Source of the DNA: Conchocele bisecta
Lineage: Eukaryota; Mollusca; Bivalvia; Lucinida; Thyasiridae
DNA: 64,000 nucleotides
Assembly (NCBI GenBank): GCA_029237695.1
Contig: CM055275.1
Location: 10,490,899-10,554,898 of the forward strand
Direction: 5' to 3'
Within the stretch, counting starts at the first letter, position 1. Each line of letters opens with the position of its first letter. The notes under the pieces were generated by a model. That model did not search any database. It was not told the origin of the DNA and saw only the letters and a list, made by a program, of their open reading frames with translations. Shown piece after piece: positions 4,231-56,333 of the stretch. A program made the position numbers and the translations under genes.

Positions 4231-4459
<229 letters not shown>

Positions 4460-15652: not shown

Positions 15653-15773
15653 CAATCAATCAATTAATCAATCAATACATAAATAAATCAATCCATAAAT
15701 AAATCAAACAAAGCCAATCAATCCATCCATAAACCAATCAATCAACCAATCAATCAACCAATCTGTGTTCCAG

Positions 15774-15881
15774 TCCATCCCAGGGACCGTGCTGCGAGGA
15801 GAGCACCTGTAGCTTCGTTCCCTTCTCGACCAACAAGACGTGTAGATACGAGCAAGACTGTGCTGCAGAGGCAGTTTGCGA
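15774..15881 (+). CDS. ADAM10: ADAM10-like disintegrin exon 2, ends at a U12-type donor
   Basis: Follows a TGTGTTCCAG acceptor; the first T completes the AG left by the preceding exon (Ser). It encodes PSQGPCCEESTCSFVPFS, then TNKTCRYEQDCAAEAVC, and leaves two bases (GA). Human ADAM10 has SPSQGPCCTAQCAF at the same position and continues DSDCAREGICNG. The sequence NKT is a possible N-glycosylation sequon. If read on, the frame stops after four more codons, and no good GT donor exists near the end. However, the bases directly after 15881 are ATATCCTTT, an exact U12-type AT-AC 5' splice site. Joined to the exon at 24284 this gives VC-D-G-I-H-A-T-C-P, matching the human ICNG..ALCP pattern. Three decayed copies of this exon lie just upstream in CAAT-repeat DNA. 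Confidence 0.9.
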
Positions 15882-17299: not shown

Positions 17300-18520
17300 T
17301 TCATATTTTTTTATGCCACCAGGTTTCGAAGAGAAACAGGTGGCATATAGTGTTTGGACCGTCCGTCCATCCGTCCGTCCGTCACACTTTTCGGTTAACC
17401 ACTTTGTCACAGTTTCTCAAACTGGCCATAGCATCTACATAAGTTGCTTTTAATCGCTTCAATACTTCAAACACTTCATTCATTGGTATGTGTGCCACAC
17501 CTGCCTTTTCATAATTTATATGACCTTCGCCTTTTGACCTTTACAGGTTACGTAAATGACTTAACAATTTTGGTTAACCAGTTCGTCAGTTTCTCAAACT
17601 GGCCATATCATCTACATAAGTTGCTTAATCGCTTCAATACTTCAAAACTTCATTCATTGGTATGTGTGCCACACCTGCCTTTTCATAATTTATATGACCT
17701 TCGCCTTTTGACCTTCACCAGGTTACTTAAATGACTTAACAATTTTGGTTAACCAGTTCGTCATAGTTTCTCAAACTGGCCATATGATCTACATAAGTTG
17801 CTTAATCGCTTCAATACTTCAACACTTCATTCATTGGTATGTGTGCCACACCTGCCTTTTCATAATTTATATGACCTTCGCCTTTTGACCTTCACCAGGT
17901 TACTTAAATGACTTAACAATTTTGGTTAACCAGTTCGTCATAGTTTCTCAAACTGGCCATATGATCTACAATAAGTTGCTTAATCGCTTCAATACTTCAA
18001 CACTTCATTCATTGGTATGTGTGCCACACCTGCCTTTTCATAATTTATATCACCTTCGCCTTTTGACCTTCACCAGGTTACTTAAATGACTTAACAATTT
18101 TGGTTAACCAGTTCGTCACAGTTTCTCAAACTGGCCATATGATCTACATAAGTTGCTTAATCGCTTCAATACTTCAACACTTCATTCATTGGTATGTGTG
18201 CCACACCTGCCTTTTCATAATTTATATGACCTTCGCCTTTTGACCTTCACCAGGTTACTTAAATGACTTAACAATTTTGGTTAACCAGTTCGTCACAGTT
18301 TCTCAAACTGGCCATATCATCTACATAAGTTGCTTAATTGCTTCAATACTTCAACACTTCATTCATTGGTATGTGTGCCACACCTGCCTTTTCATAATTT
18401 ATATCACCTTCGCCTTTTGACCTTCACCAGGTTACTTAAATGACTTAACCACTTTGTCACAGTTTCTCAAATAGCTGCAGGTGGCATCCGCGTTCGACAG
18501 ACCAGACATTTCTTGTTTAG
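17300..18520 (+). mobile_element. Type D element with ~177-bp tandem array
   Basis: Hairpin at 17312-17350, then six units CTCAAACTGGCCATATCATC...TGTGTGCCACACCTGCC...CCTTCGCCTTTTGACCTTCA, ending GACAGACCAGACATTTCTTGTTT. Confidence 0.9.
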
Positions 18521-18779: not shown

Positions 18780-20275
18780 TTTTTATGCCACCGGTTTTCG
18801 AAGAAACGGGTGGCATATAGTGTTTGGACCGTCCGTCTGTCTGGACGGACACACTGCTGGGTAGTTGTGTGACAATGCTGCTTGTGTGGCAACACATTTT
18901 ACTTCTGTGTCAATTCAAAAAGTGTACGCACGGCACCATACATCCAAGTGTCTCATATCCTCGGAGCTACAGATTCGTAAACCAGACAATGTTGAAGATT
19001 TGCGGTATCATCCAAACTCCATCATGTCCATGGACCCTAATAGCATCCAAATTACCGAGAGTGTCCAACTACTTCTGCTGCGATTTTTGGGACACTTCTG
19101 CTGCGATTTTTGGGACACATTGAAACAGTCACACAGGCTACTTTTTAGACGATTTAGACACATTTTCTCGTGTGACAGTCACACAAGATCAATTTGCAGA
19201 ACAAGCATACTTTTTTCTCAGAAATTGCGGCACAAGCATACCCTTGTCAACTCGTCCGTCTGTCCGTCCGTCGGGCCGTCCGTCCATCTGTCCGTCTGTC
19301 TGTCTGTCCGGCCATCACACTTTTCGGTTAACCACTTTGTCACAGTTTCTCAAACTGGCCATAGCATCTACATACATGTAAGTTGCTTAATCGCTTCAAT
19401 ACTTCAATACTTCATTCATTGGTATGTGTGCCACACCTGCCTTTTCATAATTTATATGACCTTCGCCTTTTGACCTTTACCAGGTTACGTAAATGACTTA
19501 ACAATTTTGGTTAACCAGTTCGTCAGTTTCTCAAACTGGCCATATCATCTACATAAGTTGCTTAATCGCTTCAATACTTCAAAACTTCATTCATTGGTAT
19601 GTGTGCCACACCTGCCTTTTCATAATTTATATGACCTTCGCCTTTTGACCTTCACCAGGTTACTTAAATGACTTAACAATTTTGGTTAACCAGTTCGTCA
19701 TAGTTTCTCAAACTGGCCATATGATCTACATAAGTTGCTTAATCGCTTCAATACTTCAACACTTCATTCATTGGTATGTGTGCCACACTGCCTTTTCATA
19801 ATTTATATCACCTTCGCCTTTTTGACCATTCACCAGGTTACTTAAATGACTTAACAATTTTGGTTAACCAGTTCGTCACAGTTCTCAAACTGGCCATATG
19901 ATCTACATAAGTTGCTTAATCGCTTCAATACTTCAACACTTCATTCATTGGTATGTGTGCCACACCTGCCTTTTCATAATTTATATGACCTTCGCCTTTT
20001 GACCTTCACCAGGTTACTTAAATGACTTAACAATTTTGGTTAACCAGTTCGTCACAGTTTCTCAAACTGGCCATATCATCTACATAAGTTGCTTAATTGC
20101 TTCAATACTTCAACACTTCATTCATTGGTATGTGTGCCACACCTGCCTTTTCATAATTTATATCACCTTCGCCTTTTGACCTTCACCAGGTTACTTAAAT
20201 GACTTAACCACTTTGTCACAGTTTCTCAAATATGCTGCAGGTGGCATCCGCGTTCGACAGACGCATTTCTTGTTT
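18780..20275 (+). repeat. Higher-order repeat unit 1, ~1.75 kb
   Basis: Hairpin TATGCCACCGGTTTTCG (18784) through CACACTGCTGGGTAG, GTCCGTC tract, five ~177-bp units, ending CATTTCTTGTTT. Repeats at an offset of 1754 bp. Confidence 0.92.
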
Positions 20276-21970
20276 AGATTTAATCTGTTTAATAGCCCAA
20301 AGTTTGTCGGCAGCAAAACGTGGAACAGACAGTAGAAACTTTAGAGAACTGAAAGGTACATACCCACTCAGTAGGCACAAAATGTTCTTTATAGGAAATA
20401 AGTAAGTATATAATTGTGTCGCTATTCCACCAGATCTAAACATTACGAGTGCCGCTGTACAAAAATAATCATTTAGTAATATAGTGACTCACGGTAATAT
20501 CAGGCTATTTTCGTATGCAAATGAGGCATGATATTTTTATGCCACCGGTTTTCGAAGAAACGGGTGGCATATAGTGTTTGGACCGTCCGTCCGTCTGTCT
20601 GGACGGACACACTGCTGGGTAGTTGTGTGACAATGCTGCTTGTGTGGCAACACATTTTACTTCTGTGTCAATTCAAAAAGTGTACGCACGGCACCATACA
20701 TCCAAGTGTCTCATATCCTCGGAGCTACAGATTCGTAAACCAGACAATGTTGAAGATTTGCGGTATCATCCAAACTCCATCATGTCCATGGACCCTAATA
20801 GCATCCAAATTACCGAGAGTGTCCAACTTACTTCTGCTGCGATTTTTGGGACACTTCTGCTGCGATTTTTGGGACACATTGAAACAGTCACACAGGCTAC
20901 TTTTTAGACGATTTAGACACATTTTCTCGTGTGACAGTCACACAAGATCAATTTGCAGAACAAGCATACTTTTTTCTCAGAAATTGCGGCACAAGCATAC
21001 CCTTGTCAACTCGTCCGTCTGTCCGTCCGTCGGGCCGTCCGTCCATCTGTCCGTCTGTTTGTCTGTCCGTCCATCACACTTTTCGGTTAACCACTTTGTC
21101 ACAGTTTCTCAAACTGGCCATAGCATCTACATACATGTAAGTTGCTTAATCGCTTCAATACTTCAATACTTCATTCATTGGTATGAGTGCCACACCTGCT
21201 CCTTTTTCATAATTTATATGACCTTCGCCTTTGACCTTCACCAGGTTACTTAAATGACTTAACAATTTTGGTTAACCAGTTCGTCAGTTTCTCAAACTGG
21301 CCATATCATCTACATAAGTTGCTTAATCGCTTCAATACTTCAACACTTCATTCATTGGTATGTGTGCCACACCTGCCTTTTCATAATTTATATGACCTTC
21401 ACCATTTGACCTTCACCAGGTTACTTAAATGACTTAACAATTTTGGTTAACCAGTTCGTCACAGTTTCTCAAACTGGCCATATGATCTACATAAGTTGCT
21501 TAATCGCTTCAATACTTCAACACTTCATTCATTGGTATGTGTGCCACACCTGCCTTTTCATAATTTATATGACCTTCGCCTTTTGACCTTCACCAGGTTA
21601 CTTAAATGACTTAACAATTTTGGTTAACCAGTTCGTCACAGTTTCTCAAACTGGCCATATCATCTGCATAAGTTGCTTAATTGCTTCAATAGTTCTGCAC
21701 CTGCTTTGCCAACACTAATATCACCTTCGCCTTTTCACCTTCACAGGGCTACTGAAGACTTAACAATTTTGGTTAACCAGTTTGTCACAGTTTCTCAAAC
21801 TGGCCATATCATCTACATAAGTTGCGTAATCGCTTTAATATTTGAATACTTCATTCATTTGCATGTATGCTTACACCTGCCTTCCCATAAACTAATATCC
21901 TTTTCACATTCCCAGGCTTACTGAAATCACCTACTTTTCCAGATTCAGAAGTTTCCTTAACAAGTTTGTC
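20276..21970 (+). repeat. Higher-order repeat unit 2, ~1.75 kb
   Basis: Contains the same AGATCTAAACATTACGAG, hairpin (20538), CACACTGCTGGG and 177-bp units as the previous block with few differences; the last units (21660 on) decay. Confidence 0.92.
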
Positions 21971-25918: not shown

Positions 25919-26024
25919 GAGTGTGCGGGCTCCCTGTGTGAGAGTTTTGGCTGGATAGAATGTTTTGACACGGGTGAGATGAAGACAAAGGAGGATCAGG
26001 AGAGACTATGTACGCTCGGATGTC
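25919..26024 (+). CDS. ADAM10: ADAM10-like cysteine-rich exon 4
   Basis: Acceptor TATATGGCAG, donor GGATGTC|GTAAGT; 35 codons plus one base (phase 0 to 1). It encodes ECAGSLCESFGWIECF, then an acidic/basic stretch DTGEMKTKEDQERLC and TLGC. Human ADAM10 has CAGSICEKYGLEEC followed by DGKDDKELCHVCC, so both order and cysteine spacing agree. This is the beginning of the membrane-proximal cysteine-rich region involved in substrate recognition. The 220 bp before the acceptor are CAAT/CAACC simple repeats, the same context as the acceptor of exon 2. A partial copy of its 3' end and donor lies about 125 bp downstream. Confidence 0.92.
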
Positions 26025-26150: not shown

Positions 26151-26180
26151 ATACTGTGTACGGATGTCGTAAGTCACTTT
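26151..26180 (+). pseudogene. Partial copy of exon 4 3' end and donor
   Basis: ACTGTGTAC.GGATGTCGTAAGTCACTT repeats the end of exon 4 (ACTATGTACGCTCGGATGTC|GTAAGTCACTT) 130 bp downstream, with a 3-bp deletion. The interval between is a small inverted-repeat element (about 26056-26148). Confidence 0.7.
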
Positions 26181-31889: not shown

Positions 31890-33692
31890 CAATTCCAGTT
31901 CTTGTTATATCCTCGGGATACGAAGTATGTCGAGGGGTATATAGTTTTTATCCCCCCTGCTTTATCAGAAGTGGGACATAGGCATAGCTTTTCCGTCGAC
32001 GTCGGCGTTGGTTTCACGTTAAGTTGTTGCGTTTAGCTCAGTTTCCAGAAAACTATAAGACCTACGACCTCCATACTTGGTATACATCAACACTGTGGTG
32101 TAACCATCTCACACAGAGGGAGCGCATGTGACCTTGACCTAGTTTTCATGGTTTTTGCGTTTAGCTCCGTTTCTAAAACTTAACGCTCAGGTTAATTCAT
32201 TGTAACTTCTGTTTCCCTCAATGGAATGCTTTAATATTACATACATGCATTTGTAACAACATCCTGCATCATTCTACAGAAAGCCCATGGTGCTCGCTAA
32301 CCCCAAAGGTCAAGGTCACTGACTTAGAAATTTCCGTGTTTGGAAAACTTTAACGCTCGGTTTAATTTATTACAACGTCTGTTTCCCTTGATGGAATGCT
32401 TCGGTATACATCAACACTGTGGTGTAACCATCTCACACAGAGGGAGCCCATGTGACCTTGACCTAATTTTCATGGTTTATTAACCTACATTTCACATGCA
32501 TTCAATGTTAAGTTTTTGCATTTAGCTGAGTTTCCGGAAAACTATAAATCCTACGACCTCCAAACTTGGTATACATCAACACTGTGGTGTAACACAGAGG
32601 GAGCCCATGTGACCTTGGCCTGGTTTTCATGGTTCATTGACATACTTTTCACATGCATTCAACGTTAAGTTTTTGCGTTTGGCTATGTTTCTAAAACTTA
32701 ACACTCAGGTTAATTCGTTGTAACTTCTGTTTCCCTCAATGGAATGTTTTAATATTCCATACATGCATTTGAAACAACATCCCGCATCATTCTACAGAAA
32801 GCCCATGGTTTCCGCTATTCTACAGAAAGCCCATGGTTTCCGCTAACCCCAAATGTCAAGGGTACAGGCATAGAAAATTCCTGGTTTGGAAAACTTAAAG
32901 GTACATGCCCACTCAGTAGGCACAAACTTTTCTTTATGGGAATTAAATAAGTGTATAATTGTGTCACTATTCCACCAGTTCTAAAAATTACGAGTGCCCG
33001 CTATACAGATATAATCGGTTAGTACTATTTATTTTACTGATAGTGACGCGCAGTGGTATCAGGTTATTGGCATATGCAAATGAAGCATGATATTTTTTTA
33101 ATTAGTTATACAAATACAGAGAATAAATAGTATTGTCCGTTAACATTTTAAGGAAACACCGTTATCGCCCCTGTTATCAGTGTGAAAATATACGTCTGAT
33201 ATAAAATGTATGATAATGCCAATCAATATGTGGGGAAATGGTGAATGAATGTTTATTTTGCCAGAAAATGTCTCAGGTAATGTCTTTGATATAGAGAACA
33301 TTTTGTGCCTACTGAGTAGGCATGTACCTTTAACGCTCGGTTTCATTTATTGCAACTTCTGTTTCCCTTGATGAAATGCTTTAATACTTCTTAGGTGTAA
33401 ACTACAGCAACATCCGGCATGATTCTACAGAAAGCCCTTGGTGCCCGCTAACCCCAAGGTCAAGGTCGCGGGCTTAATGCTCAGTTTTGAAAACCTAACA
33501 CTTGGGTTAATTTATTGTAACTTCTTGTTGTTTCCCTTGATGGAATGTTTTAATATTTCATACATGCATCTGCAGAAAGTTCATGTTGTCTGGTAACCCC
33601 AAGGTAAAGGTCACGGACTTCAAAAATGTCTTGTATAGAAATTTAGCATCGGTGCCAGGAGATACATGTCGTTGGTGGCATTCTTGTTTGTC
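31890..33692 (+). mobile_element. Hairpin-led array with inserted MITE
   Basis: Hairpin starts near 31905 and 31950; units carry GTAACTTCTGTTTCCCTCAA, ACATGCATTTGTAACAACAT, CATTCTACAGAAAGCCCATGG and AAGGTCAAGGTCAC; ends GGTGGCATTCTTGTTTG. The CATTTGTAACAACATCC...CTACAG segment resembles the non-coding half of the 73-bp array that follows. Confidence 0.75.
32895..33333. mobile_element. TTAAAGGTACATGCC MITE, TTAA-flanked
   Basis: TTAAAGGTACATGCCCACTC ... GAGTAGGCATGTACCTTTAA; ~440 bp. Copies at 42970-43450 and 45975-46356 also have TTAA at both ends; fragments at 18597, 20350 and 23290. Confidence 0.88.
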
Positions 33693-33732
33693 TTTAGCTG
33701 TGTTTGTTGAAAAATAAGTGTTTTGGTTTCAG

Positions 33733-33887
33733 TTTATTATCCCTTCGCGTAGCGACAAGGGTAAATAGTGATACAACAGTTGTCTGTTCGTCTGTCCATC
33801 CGTCTGTCCGTCACAAAAATTAACATTGGGGTTAATCTGCAATAACTTCTGTTTCCATTGATGGAATGCTTTAATATTTCATAGGTG
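33733..33887 (+). mobile_element. Hairpin TATCCCTTCGCG start merging into the exon-fragment array
   Basis: TTATCCCTTCGCGTAGCGAC.AGGGTAAATAGTG, GTCTGTCCATCCGTCTG, then AATGGAATGCTTTAATATTTC directly joined to the first 73-bp unit. Confidence 0.7.
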
Positions 33888-36800
33888 CATTTGTAACATC
33901 ATCCTACTTCTACATCTACAGAGGCCAATGCTACATCACTGTGTATACTGTCGAGCAATACATTTGTTACATCATCCTACTTATACATCTACAGAGGCCA
34001 ATGCTACTCACTGTGTACGTCGAGCAATACATTTGTAACATCAACCATATACTTCTACATCTCAGAGCCAATTGCATACATCACTGTGTATACTGTCGAG
34101 CAATACATTTGTAACATCATCCTACTTATACATCTACAGAGGCCAATGCTACATCACTGTGTATACTGTCGAGCAATACATTTGTAACATCATCCTACTT
34201 ATACATCTACAGAGCCAATGCTACATCACTGTGTAACGTCCGAGCAATACATTTAACATCTCCTACTTTACTCACAGGCCAATGCCACATCACTGGTATA
34301 CTGTCGAGCAATACATTTGTAACATCATCCACTTATACATCTACAGAGGCCAATGCTACATCAGTATACTGACCGAGCAATACATTTGTAACAATCATCC
34401 TACTATACATCTACAGAGGCCAATTATCATGTGTATACTTCGGCATACATTTGTAACATCATCCTACTTATACATCTACAGAAGCCTCTACAATCATGTA
34501 TACTGTCGAGCAATACATTTGAACATCATCCTACCTTATACATCTACAGAGGCCAATGCTACATCATCTTGTGTATACTGTCGAGCAATACTTTTGTAAC
34601 ATCATCCCTACTTTTATATCTTACAGAGGCCAATGCTACATCACTGTGTATACCTGTTCGAGCAATACATTTGTAAACATCATCCTTACTTATACATTTT
34701 ACAGAGGCCAATTGCTACATCACTGAGTTACTTTGTAAAATAACCGATCGAGGCAATACATTTGTAACATCATCTCCACTTATACATTCTACAGAGGCAA
34801 TGCTTACATCTCCGTGTATACTGTCGTGCAATACATTTGTAACATCATCATCTACATCTACAGAGGCCAATGCTACTTCAATGTGTATTCTGTCGAGCAA
34901 TACATTTGTAAAACATCATCCTACTTATACATCTACAGAGGCCAATGATACATCACTGTGTATTACTGTCGGAGCAATAACATTTGTTAAACATCATTCA
35001 CTTACTTTACATCTACAGAGGCCAATGCTACAGTATCCGTGTATTCTGTGTTGCTTAATCACATTTGTAACATCATCCTACTTAATACATCTACAGAGGC
35101 CAATGCATACTTCCACTTTGGGGTAATACTGGTCGGAGCAATACCTTTTGTAACTTCTTCTAATTTTACCATTCTACAGAGGCCAATGGCTACATTTCCA
35201 CTGTGTATACTGTTCGAGCAATACATTTGTAACATCATTTCCTACTTCTAACCATCTACTGAGGCCAATGCTACATCTCTGTGGTATACTGTCAGAGCAA
35301 TACATTTTTGTAACATTCATTCTAATCTTTAATACCTTACAGAGGCCAAATGCATACATCACTGGTGTATTACCTTGTTCGAGGCAAATTACATTTGTAA
35401 ACATTCTATCCTATGTTATACATCTTACAGAGGCCAATTGCTACATCCACTGTGTATACTGTGAGGCCAATTACATTTGTTAACATCATCCTACTTTTAA
35501 TCCTACAGAGGCCAATTGCTACATCACCGTTGTATACTGTCGAGCAATACATTTGGTAACCAATCCTCCTACTTTTACTCATTCCAGTGGCCAAATGCTA
35601 CATCTCGTGTTTTACTGTGTCGAGCAATACATTTGTAAAACATCAATCCTACTTCTACAATCTACCAGAGGGCCAATGCTTACATCAACTGTGTTATACT
35701 GTCGTGCAATACATTTGGTAACATCATCTACTTATACATTATAGAGGCAATGCTAAATCACTGTGTATACTGTCGAGGCATACAATTTGTAAATTCATCC
35801 TACTTTAAAATCTACAGGGCCAATGCTACTCACGTTTGTATACTGTCGGAGCAATAACATTTGTTAACATCATCCTACTTATTACATCATACAGAGGCCA
35901 ATGCTAAATCATCCATGTTTGGATTACTGTCGGCAATACATTTGTAACATCATCCTACTTATAACATCTACAGAGGCCAATGCCTACATCACTGGGTGTG
36001 TATAATGTCCGAAGCAATACATTTGTAACATCATCCTAACTTATACATCTACAGAGGCCAATGCTACATCTCCGTGTATTACTTCGAGCAATACATTTGT
36101 AACATTCATCCTACTTATACATCTACAGAGGCCAATGCTACATCAACTGTGTATACTGTCGAGCAATATCATTGTAATATCATCCTACTTATCACATCTA
36201 CAAGGCCAATGCTACATCACTGTGTATACTGTCCGAGCATACATTTGTAACATCATCCTACTTCTACATCTACAGAGGCCAATGCTACATCTCTGTGTAT
36301 ACTGTCGAGCAATACATTTGTAACATCATCCTACTTCTACATCTACCGAGCCAATGCTACATCACTGTGTATACTGTCGAGCATACATTATGTAACATCA
36401 ACCTACTTATACATCCTACAGAGCCAATCACTCACCTGTGTATACTGTCAGAGCAATACATTGTAACTCATCTACTTATACACTACAGAGGCCAATGCTA
36501 CATCACCGTTGTATCTGTCGAGCATACATTTGTAACATCATCCTACTATACATCTACAGAGGCCAATGCACCCTCCGTGTATACTGTCGAGCAATACATT
36601 GTTACATCATCTACTTCTACAATCTACAGAGCCAAAGCTACATCACTGGTGAATACTGTCAGCAATACATTTGGTAACATCATCCTACTTATACATCTAA
36701 GATGCCCATGCTACATCACTGTGTATACAGTCGAGCAATACAGTTTTCGTAACATCATCTACTTTATTAACATCTACAGAGGCCAATGCTACATCACTGT

Positions 36801-37704
36801 GTATACTGTCAGCCAATCCATTTGTAACACAATCCTTTACTTCTACCAACTACAGAGGCCAATGCTATCATCAACTGTGTTTATACTGTTCGAGCAATAC
36901 ATTTGTAACATCATCCTACTTCTACATCTACAGAGGCAATGCTACATTCACTGTGTATACGTCGAAGCAATCATTTGTAACATCATCTACTTAACACTAC
37001 CAGAGGCCAATGCCTACTCACTGGTGTATACCTGTCCGAGCAATACAATTTGTTAAACATCCATTCCTACTTATACATCTACCAAGAAGGCAATGCAACC
37101 AATCAACCGGTGTATCCTGCGAGCAATACATTTGAACATCATCCTACTTCTACATCTACAGAGGCCAATGCTACATCACTGTGTATACTGTCGAGCAATA
37201 CATTTGTAACATCATCCTACTTCTACATCTACAGAGGCCAATCTACATCTGTATCTGTCGAGCAATACATTTAACACATCCACTCTACATCTACAGATCA
37301 ATGCTACATCACTGTCTATACTGTCACAATACAGTGTAACATCATCCTACTTATCATCTACAGAGGTCAGCTACATCAGCCAAGCCAAAGCTACATCATG
37401 TGATAACTGCGACAATACATTTGTAACATATCCTACTTATACATCTACAGAGGCCAATGCTACATCACTGTGTTGTCGAGCAATACATTTGTAACATCAT
37501 CCTACTTATACATCTACAGAGGCCAATGCTACATCACTGTGTATACTGTCGAGCAATACATTTGTAACATCATCCTACTTCTACATCTACAGAGGCCAAT
37601 GCTACATCACTGTGTATACTGTCGAGCAATACATTTGTAACATCATCCTACTTATACATCTACAGAGGCCAATGCTACATCACTGTGTATACTGTCGAGC
37701 AATA
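33888..37704 (+). repeat. ~52-copy, 73-bp tandem array of an ADAM10 splice acceptor plus exon start
   Basis: Each unit is CATTTGTAACATCATCCTAC, TTATACATCTACAG, then AGGCCAATGCTACATCAC and TGTGTATACTGTCGAGCAATA. The second half equals the 3' splice site and first ~40 coding bases of exon 5 (EANATSLCILSSNT versus EENATSPCILSSNT). The unit is not a multiple of three, so the frame rotates. Terminal units (37430-37704 and the first) are clean; the interior has scattered one-base indels. The last unit runs into exon copy A. Confidence 0.93.
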
Positions 37705-37776
37705 CAGACCAGCTAAAGAAGTATGCGACATATCAATCAATGGTGAACGAATTGATGGCCGGTCGTGGGCTGCTAA
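37666..37776 (+). pseudogene. Exon 5 copy A, truncated by a fold-back MITE
   Basis: Starts at the last acceptor of the 73-bp array and reads EANATSLCILSSNTDQLKK, YATYQSMVNELMAGRG, clearly homologous to the intact exon 37937-38080. After GGTCGTGGG it lacks 10 nt, keeps CTGCTAAT, then runs into an inverted-repeat element and has no donor. Could still be a leftover alternative exon. Confidence 0.8.
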
Positions 37777-37936
37777 TTCTTGTTATCATCAAAAACATGC
37801 TCTGACAGCACTTTAGAATAATTTACAACATGGTTTGACAGCACTTCAGAATCATTTCCATTTGGAAATGATTCTGAAGTGCTTGTCAAACCATGTTTTA
37901 TGGCGTTAACTAGAGTTATTACTTCTATATCTACAG

Positions 37937-38080
37937 AGGAGAATGCTACGTCACCGTGTATACTGTCGAGCAATACAGACGAGCTAAATAAGCATACGGT
38001 ATATCAAGACATGGTGAACACAGTGATGGCCGGTCGTGGGAAGCAGCCAGCTGCTAATGGTGGTGTACAGATGGCGCCAG
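37937..38080 (+). CDS. ADAM10: ADAM10-like membrane-proximal exon 5 (intact copy)
   Basis: Acceptor TATATCTACAG, donor GCGCCAG|GTCAGT; phase 1 in, phase 1 out, no stop. With the C from exon 4 it reads QENATSPCILSSNTDELNK, then HTVYQDMVNTVMAGRGKQ and PAANGGVQMAPG; the next exon continues [10 protein letters not shown] (human LQPGSPCNDFRGYC). The N-A-T sequon and the Gly-rich GGVQMAPGSPC join fit the ADAM10 membrane-proximal region, although the middle of this exon is poorly conserved in the family. It is one of three related copies: an upstream copy broken by a MITE (37666-37776) and a downstream copy with a stop (38878-38959). Its first 40 bases and acceptor resemble the unit of the 33888-37704 tandem array. 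Confidence 0.87.
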
Positions 38081-38204
38081 GTCAGTATGACGCAAACAAT
38101 CAAACGTATCAACTATTGTGGAACCTCTCTAAACCGGACAGGTCAGATGACGCAAACATCAAACGTAATCAACTATTGTGGAACCAACCTCTAAACCGCA
38201 CACC

Positions 38205-38650
38205 TCTGGGAGTCCCCCATGGTGTCCGGTCTTAGAGCGGGGGAGTTTCACTGTTGAGAGGACACCCCCAGGGTGTCCGGTTAGAGAGGTTATCGTAGGG
38301 AGGGTCAGTGTCCGGGTGTAGAGTCCCCATGTCCCCGGGTTTTAGAGAGGTTTCACTGTCAATTGATCATTTGATCATTCTGAGCCATGGCTGTGTGCTA
38401 TGCGATCACGAACAGACATTATCACCTGATATATACAGTCAAACCTGTGCTAAAAACCACCTCCGAATAGCAATCACCTGGCTTTAAAGACCACACTTTT
38501 GTTTTCCCAATGGCACAATTACTATATAAATGTCCCCGCGAATAAAGACCACCTGTGAACAGGTTTGACTGTATGACCAAAAAACTCCTCAAAAGTAAGA
38601 AACCTTTTGTTTTCATGGTGTCTGGTTTAGAGAGGTTCTACTGTATTTCA
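38205..38650. mobile_element. GGTGTCCGG...TTTCACTG element with inner TACAGTCAAACC MITE
   Basis: GGTGTCCGGTTAGAGAGG-type repeats; inside is a TA-flanked MITE, TACAGTCAAACCTGTG ... ACAGGTTTGACTGTA (38434-38573), Tc1/mariner style. Confidence 0.75.
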
Positions 38651-38877
38651 GATAGTTTCTTTGTTAATATATAATATATGGGATTTAGTACTAAACCCAT
38701 TGACCCGTCCTTAAATGACCTTAGCTGTTGATAGGCCGTTAAACCCCAACAAACAAACAAATATCATCAGAACTATTATGTCGTGACCACCATATGAACC
38801 GTCTTGACAAGATGTTTCAAATGAGTGGTCACAACATATGCTTTCAATAAGAAAATTTTGAAGTACATGTACTTGAA

Positions 38878-38959
38878 TATCTAGCTATGGTGAACGAAGT
38901 GATCGGAGGTCGTGGGCTGCAGTCAGTGAGTTCTGGAGGGGGCGTATAAATGGCGCCAG
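38878..38959 (+). pseudogene. Exon 5 copy C, 3' part with in-frame stop
   Basis: Reads AMVNEVIGGRGLQSVSSGGG-V-stop-MAPV, matching MVNTVMAGRGKQ...GGVQMAPG of the intact exon. CAG (Gln) is replaced by TAA and the GTCAGT donor is lost by a one-base deletion. The 5' part and acceptor are missing. Confidence 0.8.
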
Positions 38960-39904: not shown

Positions 39905-40044
39905 GGTCACCATGCAACAATCTCCAAGGTTACTGTGATGTGTTTTTCCGTTGCCGTGGCGTCGATGCAGACGGGCCTCTGTCTCGACTGAAGAACCTCA
40001 TTTTCAACCCGGAAACATTGGAGACGGTGAAAGACTGGATTGTG
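39905..40044 (+). CDS. ADAM10: ADAM10-like membrane-proximal exon 6
   Basis: Acceptor CCTTGCAG, donor ATTGTG|GTACGG; phase 1 in, phase 0 out. It encodes [17 protein letters not shown], then [17 protein letters not shown] and [13 protein letters not shown]. Human ADAM10 has PGSPCNDFRGYCDVFMRC followed by RLVDADGPLARLKKAIF, a very close match that fixes the identity of the gene. This is the last extracellular segment before the membrane, the stalk that orients the protease over its substrate. Four degenerate copies of the 3' third of this exon follow within 800 bp in the intron. Confidence 0.96.
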
Positions 40045-40437: not shown

Positions 40438-40502
40438 AGTCCCTGTTAAAGAACCTCATTTTCATCCACGAAACGTTGGAGACTGTTAAAGACTGGATTT
40501 TG
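40438..40502 (+). pseudogene. Exon 6 3'-end copy 2, frame open, GTAAAT donor
   Basis: Reads [27 protein letters not shown] beside [20 protein letters not shown] of the real exon. Frame and donor are kept; no acceptor is seen. Confidence 0.8.
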
Positions 40503-40587
40503 GTAAATATAATAATCAGGTGAGGCTAGGAATGTGTAGGAATTACGAGGCTTGCCAAGCAATTCCTACCATTTCCTAGCCGAGCTG

Positions 40588-40643
40588 TCCCTGTTAAAGA
40601 ACCTCATTTTCATCCCGAAACATTGGAGACGGTTAAACACTGG
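40588..40643 (+). pseudogene. Exon 6 3'-end copy 3, frameshifted
   Basis: CCTGTTAAAGAACCTCATTT then TCATCCCGAAACATTGGAGACG; one base is missing after CCC and the donor is gone. Confidence 0.75.
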
Positions 40644-40752
40644 TATATATTGTTAATTCTAGGCTTGTGTCTTATCTAATCTTCTGAGGCTAGGAAATGC
40701 GTAGGAATTACGAGGCTTGCCGAGCAATTTCTATAATTTTCGAGCTGAAAAT

Positions 40753-40815
40753 TGCCTGTTAAAGAACCTCATTTTCATCCCGGGAACTGTGGAGATGGTT
40801 AAAGACTGGATCATG
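40753..40815 (+). pseudogene. Exon 6 3'-end copy 4, donor lost
   Basis: Reads LLKNLIFIPGTVEMVKDWIM; the frame is open but ATCATGATAC has replaced the GT donor. Confidence 0.75.
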
Positions 40816-41089
40816 ATACATATTGTTAAATCCAGAGAACCGAGTACACATTCATATGGACAATAAAAGTAGTAAGATTAGTACTAATCCTATTATTTTT
40901 AAGGAGAGGAGCTAAGTGACTCTGGTCTGGTGAGGACCTGGCATCAGGTCAGGCTGTTCTAATTCCAGGGCTTGATATATATTTGTTTTGTAAATACTCG
41001 GTTATGAACAAGTGAAATATGGGATTCGACCTCATCCACCCAGCCTAAAATGACCTTGGCTGTTGACAGGCCATTAAACACCATTACAT

Positions 41090-41562: not shown

Positions 41563-41722
41563 TTTTGTCGTCTGCTGTTTATTTGCTAGTTTCCATTTTT
41601 ATCAACAAACACATGGTTTGGCAGCACTTTAGAATCATTTCCAATGGAAATGATTCTAAAGTGCTGCCAAACCGTGTTTTATTGAGGGAAATCTGCCAAA
41701 TATGAAACGACAGCAGACGACA
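41563..41722. mobile_element. TTGTCGTCTGCTG fold-back element
   Basis: TGTCGTCTGCTGTTTATTTG ... CGACAGCAGACGACA with inner palindrome TTGGCAGCACTTTAGAATCA / TGATTCTAAAGTGCTGCCAA. Same inner palindrome interrupts exon 5 copy A at 37780-37900. Confidence 0.88.
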
Positions 41723-41959: not shown

Positions 41960-42169
41960 GAGAACTGGTGGGCGGTACTATTAATGGCAATCGGCCTCGT
42001 TGTTGCTATGGCAATATTTATCAAATTCTGTGCCGTACACACGCCAAGTTCGAATCCGAAAGCGAAACCGGCGCGCAAACTTAGCGAGACGATGACCTTG
42101 CGTCGCCGTAGAAACCAACGCCAGCAACAAGGTCAACAGCAAAATCCACAGCCGGTTCGATATCCACAG
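41960..42169 (+). CDS. ADAM10: ADAM10-like transmembrane and juxtamembrane exon 7
   Basis: Acceptor ATTTTGCAG, donor CCACAG|GTACGT; exactly 70 codons, phase 0 both sides. It starts [20 protein letters not shown], one hydrophobic transmembrane helix, followed by [14 protein letters not shown], nearly identical to human ADAM10 (HWWAVLLMG..., [11 protein letters not shown]). The tail then has a basic [10 protein letters not shown] stretch and Q/N/P-rich [15 protein letters not shown]. In the mammalian protein this region holds an ER-retention arginine motif and SH3-binding prolines; the RRRR here may act similarly (inference). A 47/48-identical copy of the [13 protein letters not shown] coding segment occurs about 210 bp downstream. 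Confidence 0.95.
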
Positions 42170-42228: not shown

Positions 42229-42770
42229 GTTGTCGTCTGCTGTATTTAAATTGTTGTTTTTTTTTGTGGATGGGGTGACGGTGTTCATGGTTCTTAGCGA
42301 GACGATGACCTTGCGTCGCCGTAGAAACCAACACCAGCAGTTGTCGTCTGCTGTATTTAAATTGTGTTTTTTTGTGGATGGTTTGAAGCGATTATTGCCA
42401 TTTGCTTTGACAATTTTGACTTATTTCTCAAAATGTTTTGACAGAACATGAGAATCGTCTCATTGGAGAAATTGGAGAATTGTCTCATTGGAGTCGACAA
42501 TTGCATCGTGAAAAAACAAGTCTTGTGATTTATTTATTTTTTATTTAATTTCTTAAGTCAATTGTCGTCTGCTGTTGCTTTTATATCTTGCCTTATTTCT
42601 CAATAAAAACATGTTTTTGACAGCACTTCAGAATCATTTCCATTGGAAATGATTCTGAAGTTGTAAATTATTCTAAAGTTCTCTCCAAGCATGTTGTTGA
42701 TGATAACAATGGAAAATAGAAAACAGACAGCAGACGACAAAAAATTAAGATAGCGGTTGTGTAAGGGTTA
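42229..42770. mobile_element. Cluster of TGTCGTCTGCTG fold-backs, TTAA end
   Basis: Ends at 42229, 42342 and 42561, right end CAGCAGACGACAAAAAATTA...TGTAAGGGTTAA; the equivalent left end TTAACCCTTAGACCGC is at 53945, showing CCCTTA/TTAA termini. Confidence 0.75.
42292..42339 (+). pseudogene. Recent copy of the [13 protein letters not shown] coding segment
   Basis: 47 of 48 bases match 42080-42127 inside exon 7. The copy is bracketed by two copies of a TGTCGTCTGCTGTATTTAAA segment, so it is part of a short tandem duplication. It has no donor. Confidence 0.85.
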
Positions 42771-53657: not shown

Positions 53658-54269
53658 ATATTTTTCTTATTTATAATAAATTTACACTAGCTGCTGTGTC
53701 TCAGATGGTATTCCAAGGATGCATTTCACAAAAAAAGCTCTGATTGAAGTTGTATGAATACAGTCACAACTTGTCACTGATCATAAACCTGTGTTTGTCA
53801 GCTAATTATCGCGTTTGAATGTCAGCTTCGGATATCATAAACATCAAAACCAGGAAATTTCATGATACTGCATAAACACATTTTCGTCCAGTAACCTGTA
53901 CAGATTTCTTGACTACCAATAATGGGTGTACATTTATATTTACTTAACCCTTAGACCGCTATCTTATTTTTTTTGTCGTCTGCTGTTTATTTCCTATTTT
54001 CCATTTTTATCATCAAAAACATGCTTTGACAGCACTTTAGAAAAAAAAATTACAACATGGTTTGACAGCACTTCAGAATCATTTCCATTGGAAAAAAAAA
54101 ATTAAATAAGAAACTGTGATATTTTCTGTAAATGGTGTTGAATGTTGGTGTAATCTTCATTGCAAATGCGGAATTCTATTCCGCATTTGCCCTGAACATT
54201 TCATCAACTTTCGTAAAATATTGTAAATTTTGTAAATATTTTTAATGAGAATTATCGCACATCCTCGAG

Positions 54270-55295: not shown

Positions 55296-56333
55296 TGTAT
55301 TCACATTGGTAACATTGTCTTACTTTTCTTCCATTTTCTGTTGCCATTTTCTGTATCTCTTTAACACTTAGACCGCTACACACAACAATTGTCGTCTGCT
55401 GTTGCTTTTATATCTTGCCTTATTTCTCAATAAAAAACATGGTTTGACAGCACTTCAGAATCGTTTCCAATGGTTTTTATGCGTGACGCGGCCACCTGCT
55501 TTGTCAAGCTATGTGTACATCGACAACCCTCGTAGTCGAGCTATGCTGTTCTCCTACAGCTCTGTTGCGCATAACCCCCACATCCCAATTATCAAGGTCA
55601 AGGTCACTTCGCCTTTTTTCTCTCAATTTCTTTTTAATATTTGGCCACATAATATAATACATGTATTTGTGTGTCTAAGGAAGGGTCTTTGTTTCAAAAA
55701 GGCCCCACAGTCTGCAAACCGGTCACTGTCAGGACTGCATGCCAGCGAGGGGATTAGCTTAGTGATAATGTTTAATAAAAGGTATACTAAAATTGTCAGT
55801 TTACTGCTGTTTATCTAACGGTGAAGGCCACTGTGTGAATCTGGCATTTATATTTGACACACGCCACGTGGTTTTGTACCGAAGAATGTGTGCCACTTTT
55901 CGAGATTTTTTTCAAAATCTACGATATTTTTCGTAAATGACGTCAAAAGTTGGCGAAATTCTCAGAGCAAATGCGGAATAGAATTCCGCATTTGCTCTGA
56001 ACATTTCTTCAACTTTTGAAGTCATCTACAAAAGATATCGTAGATTTTGTAACTATTTTATCATTACATATCGCACATCTTCGGAGGTACAAAATCACAT
56101 GGACCGGATCTCTGGAATTATCTCCCTGAGCTACTCGCCATTTTTTACCGATACTGATTTTAAAAATAATTCATATTTTGTGTAAATGATGTTGAAAATT
56201 GACAAGAAATTCCACATGAGCTCTGATTTTTATTGTCAATTTTCGAAGTCCTTGATGGAAATATTGCAATTTTTTCGAATCAATATCGTCGAAAATCGGT
56301 GATGGTGATTATATAGAGGTAATGCCACGATCT
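55296..56333. other. No gene; repeat fragments
   Basis: Contains a TTGTCGTCTGCTG end (55388), the GTCAAGCTATGTGTACATCG sequence also seen at 14790, an AAGGTCAAGGTCAC core (55590) and the fold-back at 55870-56105. Confidence 0.55.

Follow-up and report, generated by a model that had tools for sequence, protein, structure and literature searches.

A mirage-type minisatellite of about 51 units at the splice acceptor of a dead duplicate exon in an ADAM10 gene of the bivalve Conchocele bisecta

Introduction

Minisatellites whose repeats run across an intron-exon boundary have been described in amphioxus under the name 'mirage', with cases in Adh3 and the globin genes BflGb6 and BflGb9 (PMC3087553), to which PGBD5 and troponin C were added (PMC3902484). 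Regular splicing is described in these reports as undisturbed, and the Adh3 mirage, with units of 10-72 bp, is described as keeping its splice signals in many repeats (PMC3087553, PMC3902484); published mirage units measure 10-160 bp in the cases found. Related structures are the IFI6 (6-16) minisatellite with its multiple splice donor sites (Turri et al. 1995, via PMC4526556) and the internal tandem repeats of human segmental duplications. The latter average 30 bp x 4, can alter splicing when located at exon-intron boundaries, and, when exonic, may either remain in the transcript or be removed from it by splicing (PMC2812944). In the open-licence literature, no paper was found on a bivalve minisatellite that contains a splice site.

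Here we describe a tandem array within an ADAM10 gene of the bivalve Conchocele bisecta, located in a stretch of 64,000 nucleotides (referred to as the window; GCA_029237695.1, CM055275.1, corresponding to C11:10490899-10554898 in the 1.89-Gb assembly). The array is an unusually large mirage-type minisatellite and a new instance of a known structure. Because the amphioxus mirages are published, the view of the initial annotation, made from the sequence alone, that no such array had been described was wrong (PMC3087553, PMC3902484; see also the IFI6 case, PMC4526556). The structure, which under that name we found in the literature from amphioxus only, is hereby extended to a bivalve mollusc.

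Like the amphioxus mirages, the ADAM10 array spans an intron-exon boundary (34 nt of intron end and 39 nt of exon start), has a unit within the minisatellite range (73 bp) and keeps a splice signal in many units (CAGAG[GC] in 41/51). It differs from them in its bivalve host and in its roughly 51 units, compared to 6 and 3 in BflGb6, amounting to eight to nine times the units of the larger globin example (51 vs 6). Moreover, its unit stems partly from a dispersed repeat, and it adjoins a dead exon copy without a good donor (B', see below), 271 bp upstream of the authentic acceptor, although the passages cited on mirages do not state adjacency to a used exon as a requirement. As in IFI6, minisatellite repeats coincide with splice sites, which are donors there and acceptors in the ADAM10 array. 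The IFI6 repeat reportedly has a 12-bp unit in about 26 copies. The human internal tandem repeats resemble the ADAM10 array as boundary minisatellites, but are far smaller on average (30 bp x 4 vs 73 bp x ~51).

The ADAM10 gene and its exons

Four exons on the + strand, named A to D, join in one open phase:

25919..26024, + strand: ADAM10 exon A, with donor GTAAGT (phase join; tblastn with six ADAM10 proteins)
37937..38080, + strand: intact ADAM10 exon B, acceptor 37936, donor after 38080 (phase-consistent with A and C; ADAM10 matches)
39905..40044, + strand: ADAM10 exon C (phase join; tblastn)
41960..42169, + strand: ADAM10 exon D, encoding the transmembrane and cytoplasmic portions (end placed by eye at CCACAG/GTACGT)

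For the 205 residues joined in this way, the PDB gave ADAM10 (8esv_A, E 3.7e-41) and Pfam the ADAM10 cysteine-rich domain (PF21299, E 8.6e-15). Among the best 120 of 236 full-length matches, the closest were an unnamed entry (71%) and the ADAM10 proteins of Mactra antiquata (70%), Mercenaria (68%), Dreissena (62%) and Mya (61%). Exon B was covered in an alignment with seven ADAM10 proteins. The PDB and Pfam matches, which show the cysteine-rich domain and the conserved C-terminal half of ADAM10, and the named bivalve ADAM10 proteins at 61-70% bear out the gene identity that the initial annotation had proposed. No near-identical transcript-derived protein was present among the 38 matches of one search or the best 120 of 236 of another, the best listed protein matches reaching 71% across 99% of the query or 81% across 43% of it.

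Matches to Mercenaria ADAM10 were spread over C11 from ~10351317 to 10564567. Exons for approximately residues 161-596 occur twice in this region, at C11:10395007-10434234 and C11:10451932-10506780. These doubled sets lie ~57-73 kb apart, are 79-94% alike in the compared pieces, and represent either a segment duplicated inside the gene or two genes that overlap. An ADAM-like copy at C5:30249783-30250991, with a 566-aa open frame and 35-40% identity to the ADAM10 queries, looks intron-poor.

Extent and anatomy of the array

The array sits in the ADAM10 intron that separates exons A and B, and its features, together with those of its left flank, are as follows:

33330..33905, + strand: dispersed-repeat fragment with internal repeats of ~165-170 bp, starting here or earlier (own-genome search)
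33888..37706, + strand: tandem array, 73-bp unit, ~51 copies (Tandem Repeats Finder, wrap-around alignment, core count)
33888..33905, + strand: unit 1 positions 1-18, of dispersed-repeat origin, with branch-point-like GTAAC
33906..33921, + strand: unit 1 positions 19-34, end of the native intron and acceptor AG (15/16 to exon B flank)
33922..33960, + strand: unit 1 positions 35-73, exon start, reading Q-ANATSLCILSSNT after donor A (35/39 to exon B)

Tandem Repeats Finder reported 51.0 copies of a 73-bp unit at 33888-37706, with 77% matches and 14% indels. Wrap-around alignment of 33888-37710 to the consensus unit yielded 51.1 units (3517 matches, 87 substitutions, and 219 inserted and 129 deleted bases). 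A 28-nt core over the intron/exon boundary occurred 18 times at no more than 3 mismatches, against none in 100 shuffles. The sequence does contain the array, and its description as some 52 copies upstream of the intact exon stands with a count of ~51, while its right end moves from 37776 to 37706 (Tandem Repeats Finder).

The consensus unit, CATTTGTAACATCATCCTACTTATACATCTACAG / AGGCCAATGCTACATCACTGTGTATACTGTCGAGCAATA, consists of 34 nt ending in CTACAG and of 39 nt with 35/39 identity to exon B, which supports the splice acceptor and exon start recognised in the initial annotation. CTACAGAGG is exact in 29/51 units, and CAGAG[GC] is the motif kept in 41/51. The proposed division into half intron and half coding sequence agrees with these 34 + 39 nt, but 18 of the 34 'intron' nucleotides come from a dispersed repeat, making the unit a chimera of 18 nt dispersed repeat, 16 nt native intron end and 39 nt exon.

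Copies of exon B and the hairpin element

Exon B is present in three copies, being B' at 37649-37769 including flank (85%), B itself and a relic B'' (72%):

37666..37769, + strand: exon B', shortened second copy (blastn 85% to exon B)
37776..37912, no strand assigned: hairpin (MITE-like) element that separates B' from B (RNA fold at -57.5 kcal/mol, z -11.7)
38078..38202, + strand: exon B donor and intron start, one tandem duplication (Tandem Repeats Finder 60 bp x 2.0; 89%)
38877..38959, + strand: B'', remnant of a third copy of exon B, containing an in-frame stop (72% over 83 bp)

The last array unit leads into B', which follows exon B only up to 37769 and then gives way to the hairpin element. 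B' contains no donor-like site scoring at least 7/9 and runs into a stop after 46 codons. The acceptor of B' is located at 37665 and the authentic exon B acceptor at 37936, 271 bp downstream. A full-length exon at the array end, into which the array had been said to run straight, is ruled out by the truncation of B', the intact exon starting at 37937. Likewise, the 3' splice site that was amplified is not the intact exon's own, as had been supposed, but that of the dead duplicate B'.

In a search of the own genome with exon B, 24/24 reported matches fell at the array locus (8 candidates scored; counts are lower bounds). The possibility that the array is a dispersed satellite was rejected, this locus being the only one reported in the search made. 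Relatives of the hairpin element, for which the fold was computed on the 37776-37912 copy, occur at 41596-41682, 42606-42709, 54004-54094 and 55430-55476, several members of the family lying in ADAM10 introns.

Origin of the unit

The dispersed-repeat fragment upstream of the array ends 16 bp before the first acceptor. Searching the own genome with 33400-33890 yielded 114 matches, with 40 of 1814 candidates scored. Seven copies were fetched beyond the window, five of which read through the end of the repeat, the other two being without a same-strand match. In these five copies, unit positions 1-18 are matched at 16-18/18, after which the copies diverge, leaving 5-7/16 at positions 19-34. The flank of exon B displays the reverse pattern, with 4/18 at positions 1-18 and 15/16 at positions 19-34. 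Since positions 1-18 fit the repeat and positions 19-34 fit the exon B flank, the unit is a fusion of a mobile repeat's broken end with the native acceptor and the start of the exon. An acceptor derived from the mobile repeat itself, some copies of which carry TCTACAGA, was ruled out by the same comparison (5-7/16 vs 15/16 for the exon B flank). At the unit junction, direct reading revealed two bases (CA) common to the upstream flank and the exon.

We propose the following order of events. Exon B would first have been duplicated to give B', B and B'', after which B' would have lost its 3' end and donor beside the hairpin element. A truncated dispersed repeat would then have come to lie 16 bp before the B' acceptor, and a 73-bp segment across the repeat end, acceptor and exon start may have been duplicated at the 2-bp CA microhomology. 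Slippage or unequal exchange would finally have expanded this duplicate to ~51 units, with the death of exon B' having presumably freed the array from coding constraint. The locus might in turn illustrate how a mirage is born, from the end of a mobile repeat and the acceptor of a defunct exon copy.

Taken as a whole, we consider it likely that the array is a private mirage-type minisatellite derived from a dead exon copy, that it is non-productive if used, and that its inner indels are mostly read errors.

Reliability of the inner units

The array holds 9.3 indels vs 2.3 substitutions per 100 bp (ratio 4.0), and 259/296 indel events involve a single base. With distance from the array edge, indels per 100 bp go from 2.6 (within 150 bp) over 4.6 (150-300 bp) to 6.0-14.4 (further in). 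Inserted bases adjoin the same base in 169/219 cases (a raw count, without chance level), and insertions and deletions are distributed in blocks (runs test z -8.3, counting bases rather than events). Unit 2, near the left edge, already has 4 deleted bases, and some units near the edges (4, 49 and 51) match the consensus perfectly.

As a control, 27 other arrays (at least 450 bp, period 40-200, at least 3 copies) were taken from the window and 19 sampled 10-kb stretches. Of these, 6/27 reach 7 indels per 100 bp, so that arrays here are not generally rich in indels. Indels are fewer than substitutions in 18/27 and exceed them in 9/27, with a ratio of at least 2.7 in 5/27, and two control arrays of at least 7 indels per 100 bp are as blocky as the ADAM10 array or nearly so (runs z -8.5 and -6.7).

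The inner indels fit noisy long reads that polishing might have been unable to correct inside a long array, and most of them would then be uncorrected read errors. Given that many of the single-base indels look like such errors, neither the details of individual units nor the exact number of copies can be relied upon, and the inner units of long arrays in assemblies of this kind are not suited to letter-by-letter reading. Nevertheless, not all variation is error, since 14/51 units have A>C at position 23 in common.

Such variants common to many units, together with the 9/27 other arrays in which indels outnumber substitutions, could also be expected from an old, decaying array whose units have truly diverged. 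That the indels are real in this sense is unlikely, however, given a ratio of 4.0 where 5/27 arrays reach 2.7 and 18/27 stay below 1, and given the blocks of insertions and deletions and the 169/219 insertions next to the same base.

The noisy interior, the cleaner edges and the block-wise change of error type might alternatively hint at an array that is largely an assembly artefact, either a short true array that became inflated or noisy reads that were stitched in, and one amphioxus mirage is reported as aberrantly assembled in its draft genome (PMC3087553). Nonetheless, we regard an artefact on this scale as quite improbable. Both array edges are joined to flanks of the same gene, units 4, 49 and 51 are perfect, and read errors could not produce 51 direct 73-bp repeats. 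Exon B was also without a second copy elsewhere in the own-genome search made (counts are lower bounds).

Predicted consequences for splicing

Splice signals were judged by pyrimidine counts and by matches to consensus patterns, which are simple counts rather than the output of a trained model. Units 1 and 51 contain a branch-point-like GTAAC at -29, and their 38 nt upstream are free of any other AG. Of the 17 nucleotides before the AG, 13 are pyrimidines in unit 1 and 12 in unit 51, compared to 12 for exon B, 10 for C and D, and 8 for A. By such counts the array acceptor is not weak, so its silence is not guaranteed. The locus provides a natural test of how splicing copes with tens of nearly identical acceptors ahead of an indispensable exon.

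From donor A, the consensus acceptor carries the reading frame onward (QANATSLC), with a TAA following after 64 codons. Direct reading of the 37 acceptors caught by one text pattern, the remaining units being unmatched by it, revealed a stop before 38080 in 37/37, after 7-211 codons, and the use of array acceptors would thus be unproductive. This partly revises the initial annotation, which had upstream acceptors reading into other frames: the consensus unit begins in the correct phase (Q-ANATSLC), and the frame is lost on reading into the next units. Donor-like sites of at least 7/9 numbered two in 33888-38094, namely 36648 (7/9, in a noisy unit) and 38080 (8/9), and the second copy of the donor region at 38139-38202 lies past both the scanned stretch and the stops.

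In the predicted ADAM10 mRNA, exon A is followed by exon B. Were an array acceptor used, the transcript would run toward the donor at 38080 and meet a premature stop, so that it would be lost or would encode a truncated protein without membrane anchor. It appears most likely that the array has no effect on the protein, and a role of its acceptors as decoy or alternative acceptors is possible. A functional bank of decoy acceptors, tuning ADAM10 output by unproductive splicing or yielding a truncated soluble ectodomain, would accord with the intact consensus acceptors, the GTAAC at -29, a pyrimidine content equal to that of exon B, CAGAG[GC] in 41/51 units and the stops met by all 37 tested acceptors. 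This proposal seems very unlikely, however, as the boundary concerned comes from a dead copy of the exon, local duplications abound in this genome (see below), and the amphioxus mirages are reported to leave splicing undisturbed (PMC3087553, PMC3902484). Highly improbable is the further idea of a splicing sink, in which ~51 in-phase decoys with branch points from the mobile repeat would channel ADAM10 pre-mRNA, to an extent depending on copy number, into transcripts that are truncated or degraded, such that array length would set ADAM10 shedding activity between individuals.

Local duplication in the genome

Nearby same-strand partial copies were found for 147/300 random 240-bp segments, drawn from the window (33600-38300 left out) and the sampled stretches, vs 5/7 ADAM10 exons. 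One of these five exons counts solely by simple CAAT-like repeats (15751-15879). Local duplication is therefore commonplace across this genome, and the array is most simply read as neutral in origin. Gene-wide mirages special to ADAM10 were rejected, 5/7 exons being not clearly above 147/300 random segments.

Several small copies were observed around the other exons. The donor end of exon A recurs at 26161-26179 (19/19 bp), the 3' end and donor of exon C in three copies (75-88%) at 40449-40505, 40597-40715 and 40762-40827, and an inner piece of exon D at 42293-42339 (98%).

Further tandem repeats were noted along the way. A 177-bp array occurs three times in the window (17384-18456, 19317-20215 and 21076-21695), with similar open frames between the copies, which suggests a larger tandem unit of ~1.8-1.9 kb. 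A nearly pure (CGT)n tract of ~76 units lies at 4232-4458. Finally, the 8 kb at L029:477-8426 hold several distinct minisatellites (41-109 bp), of which some are matched at 97-99% and others have 18% indels.
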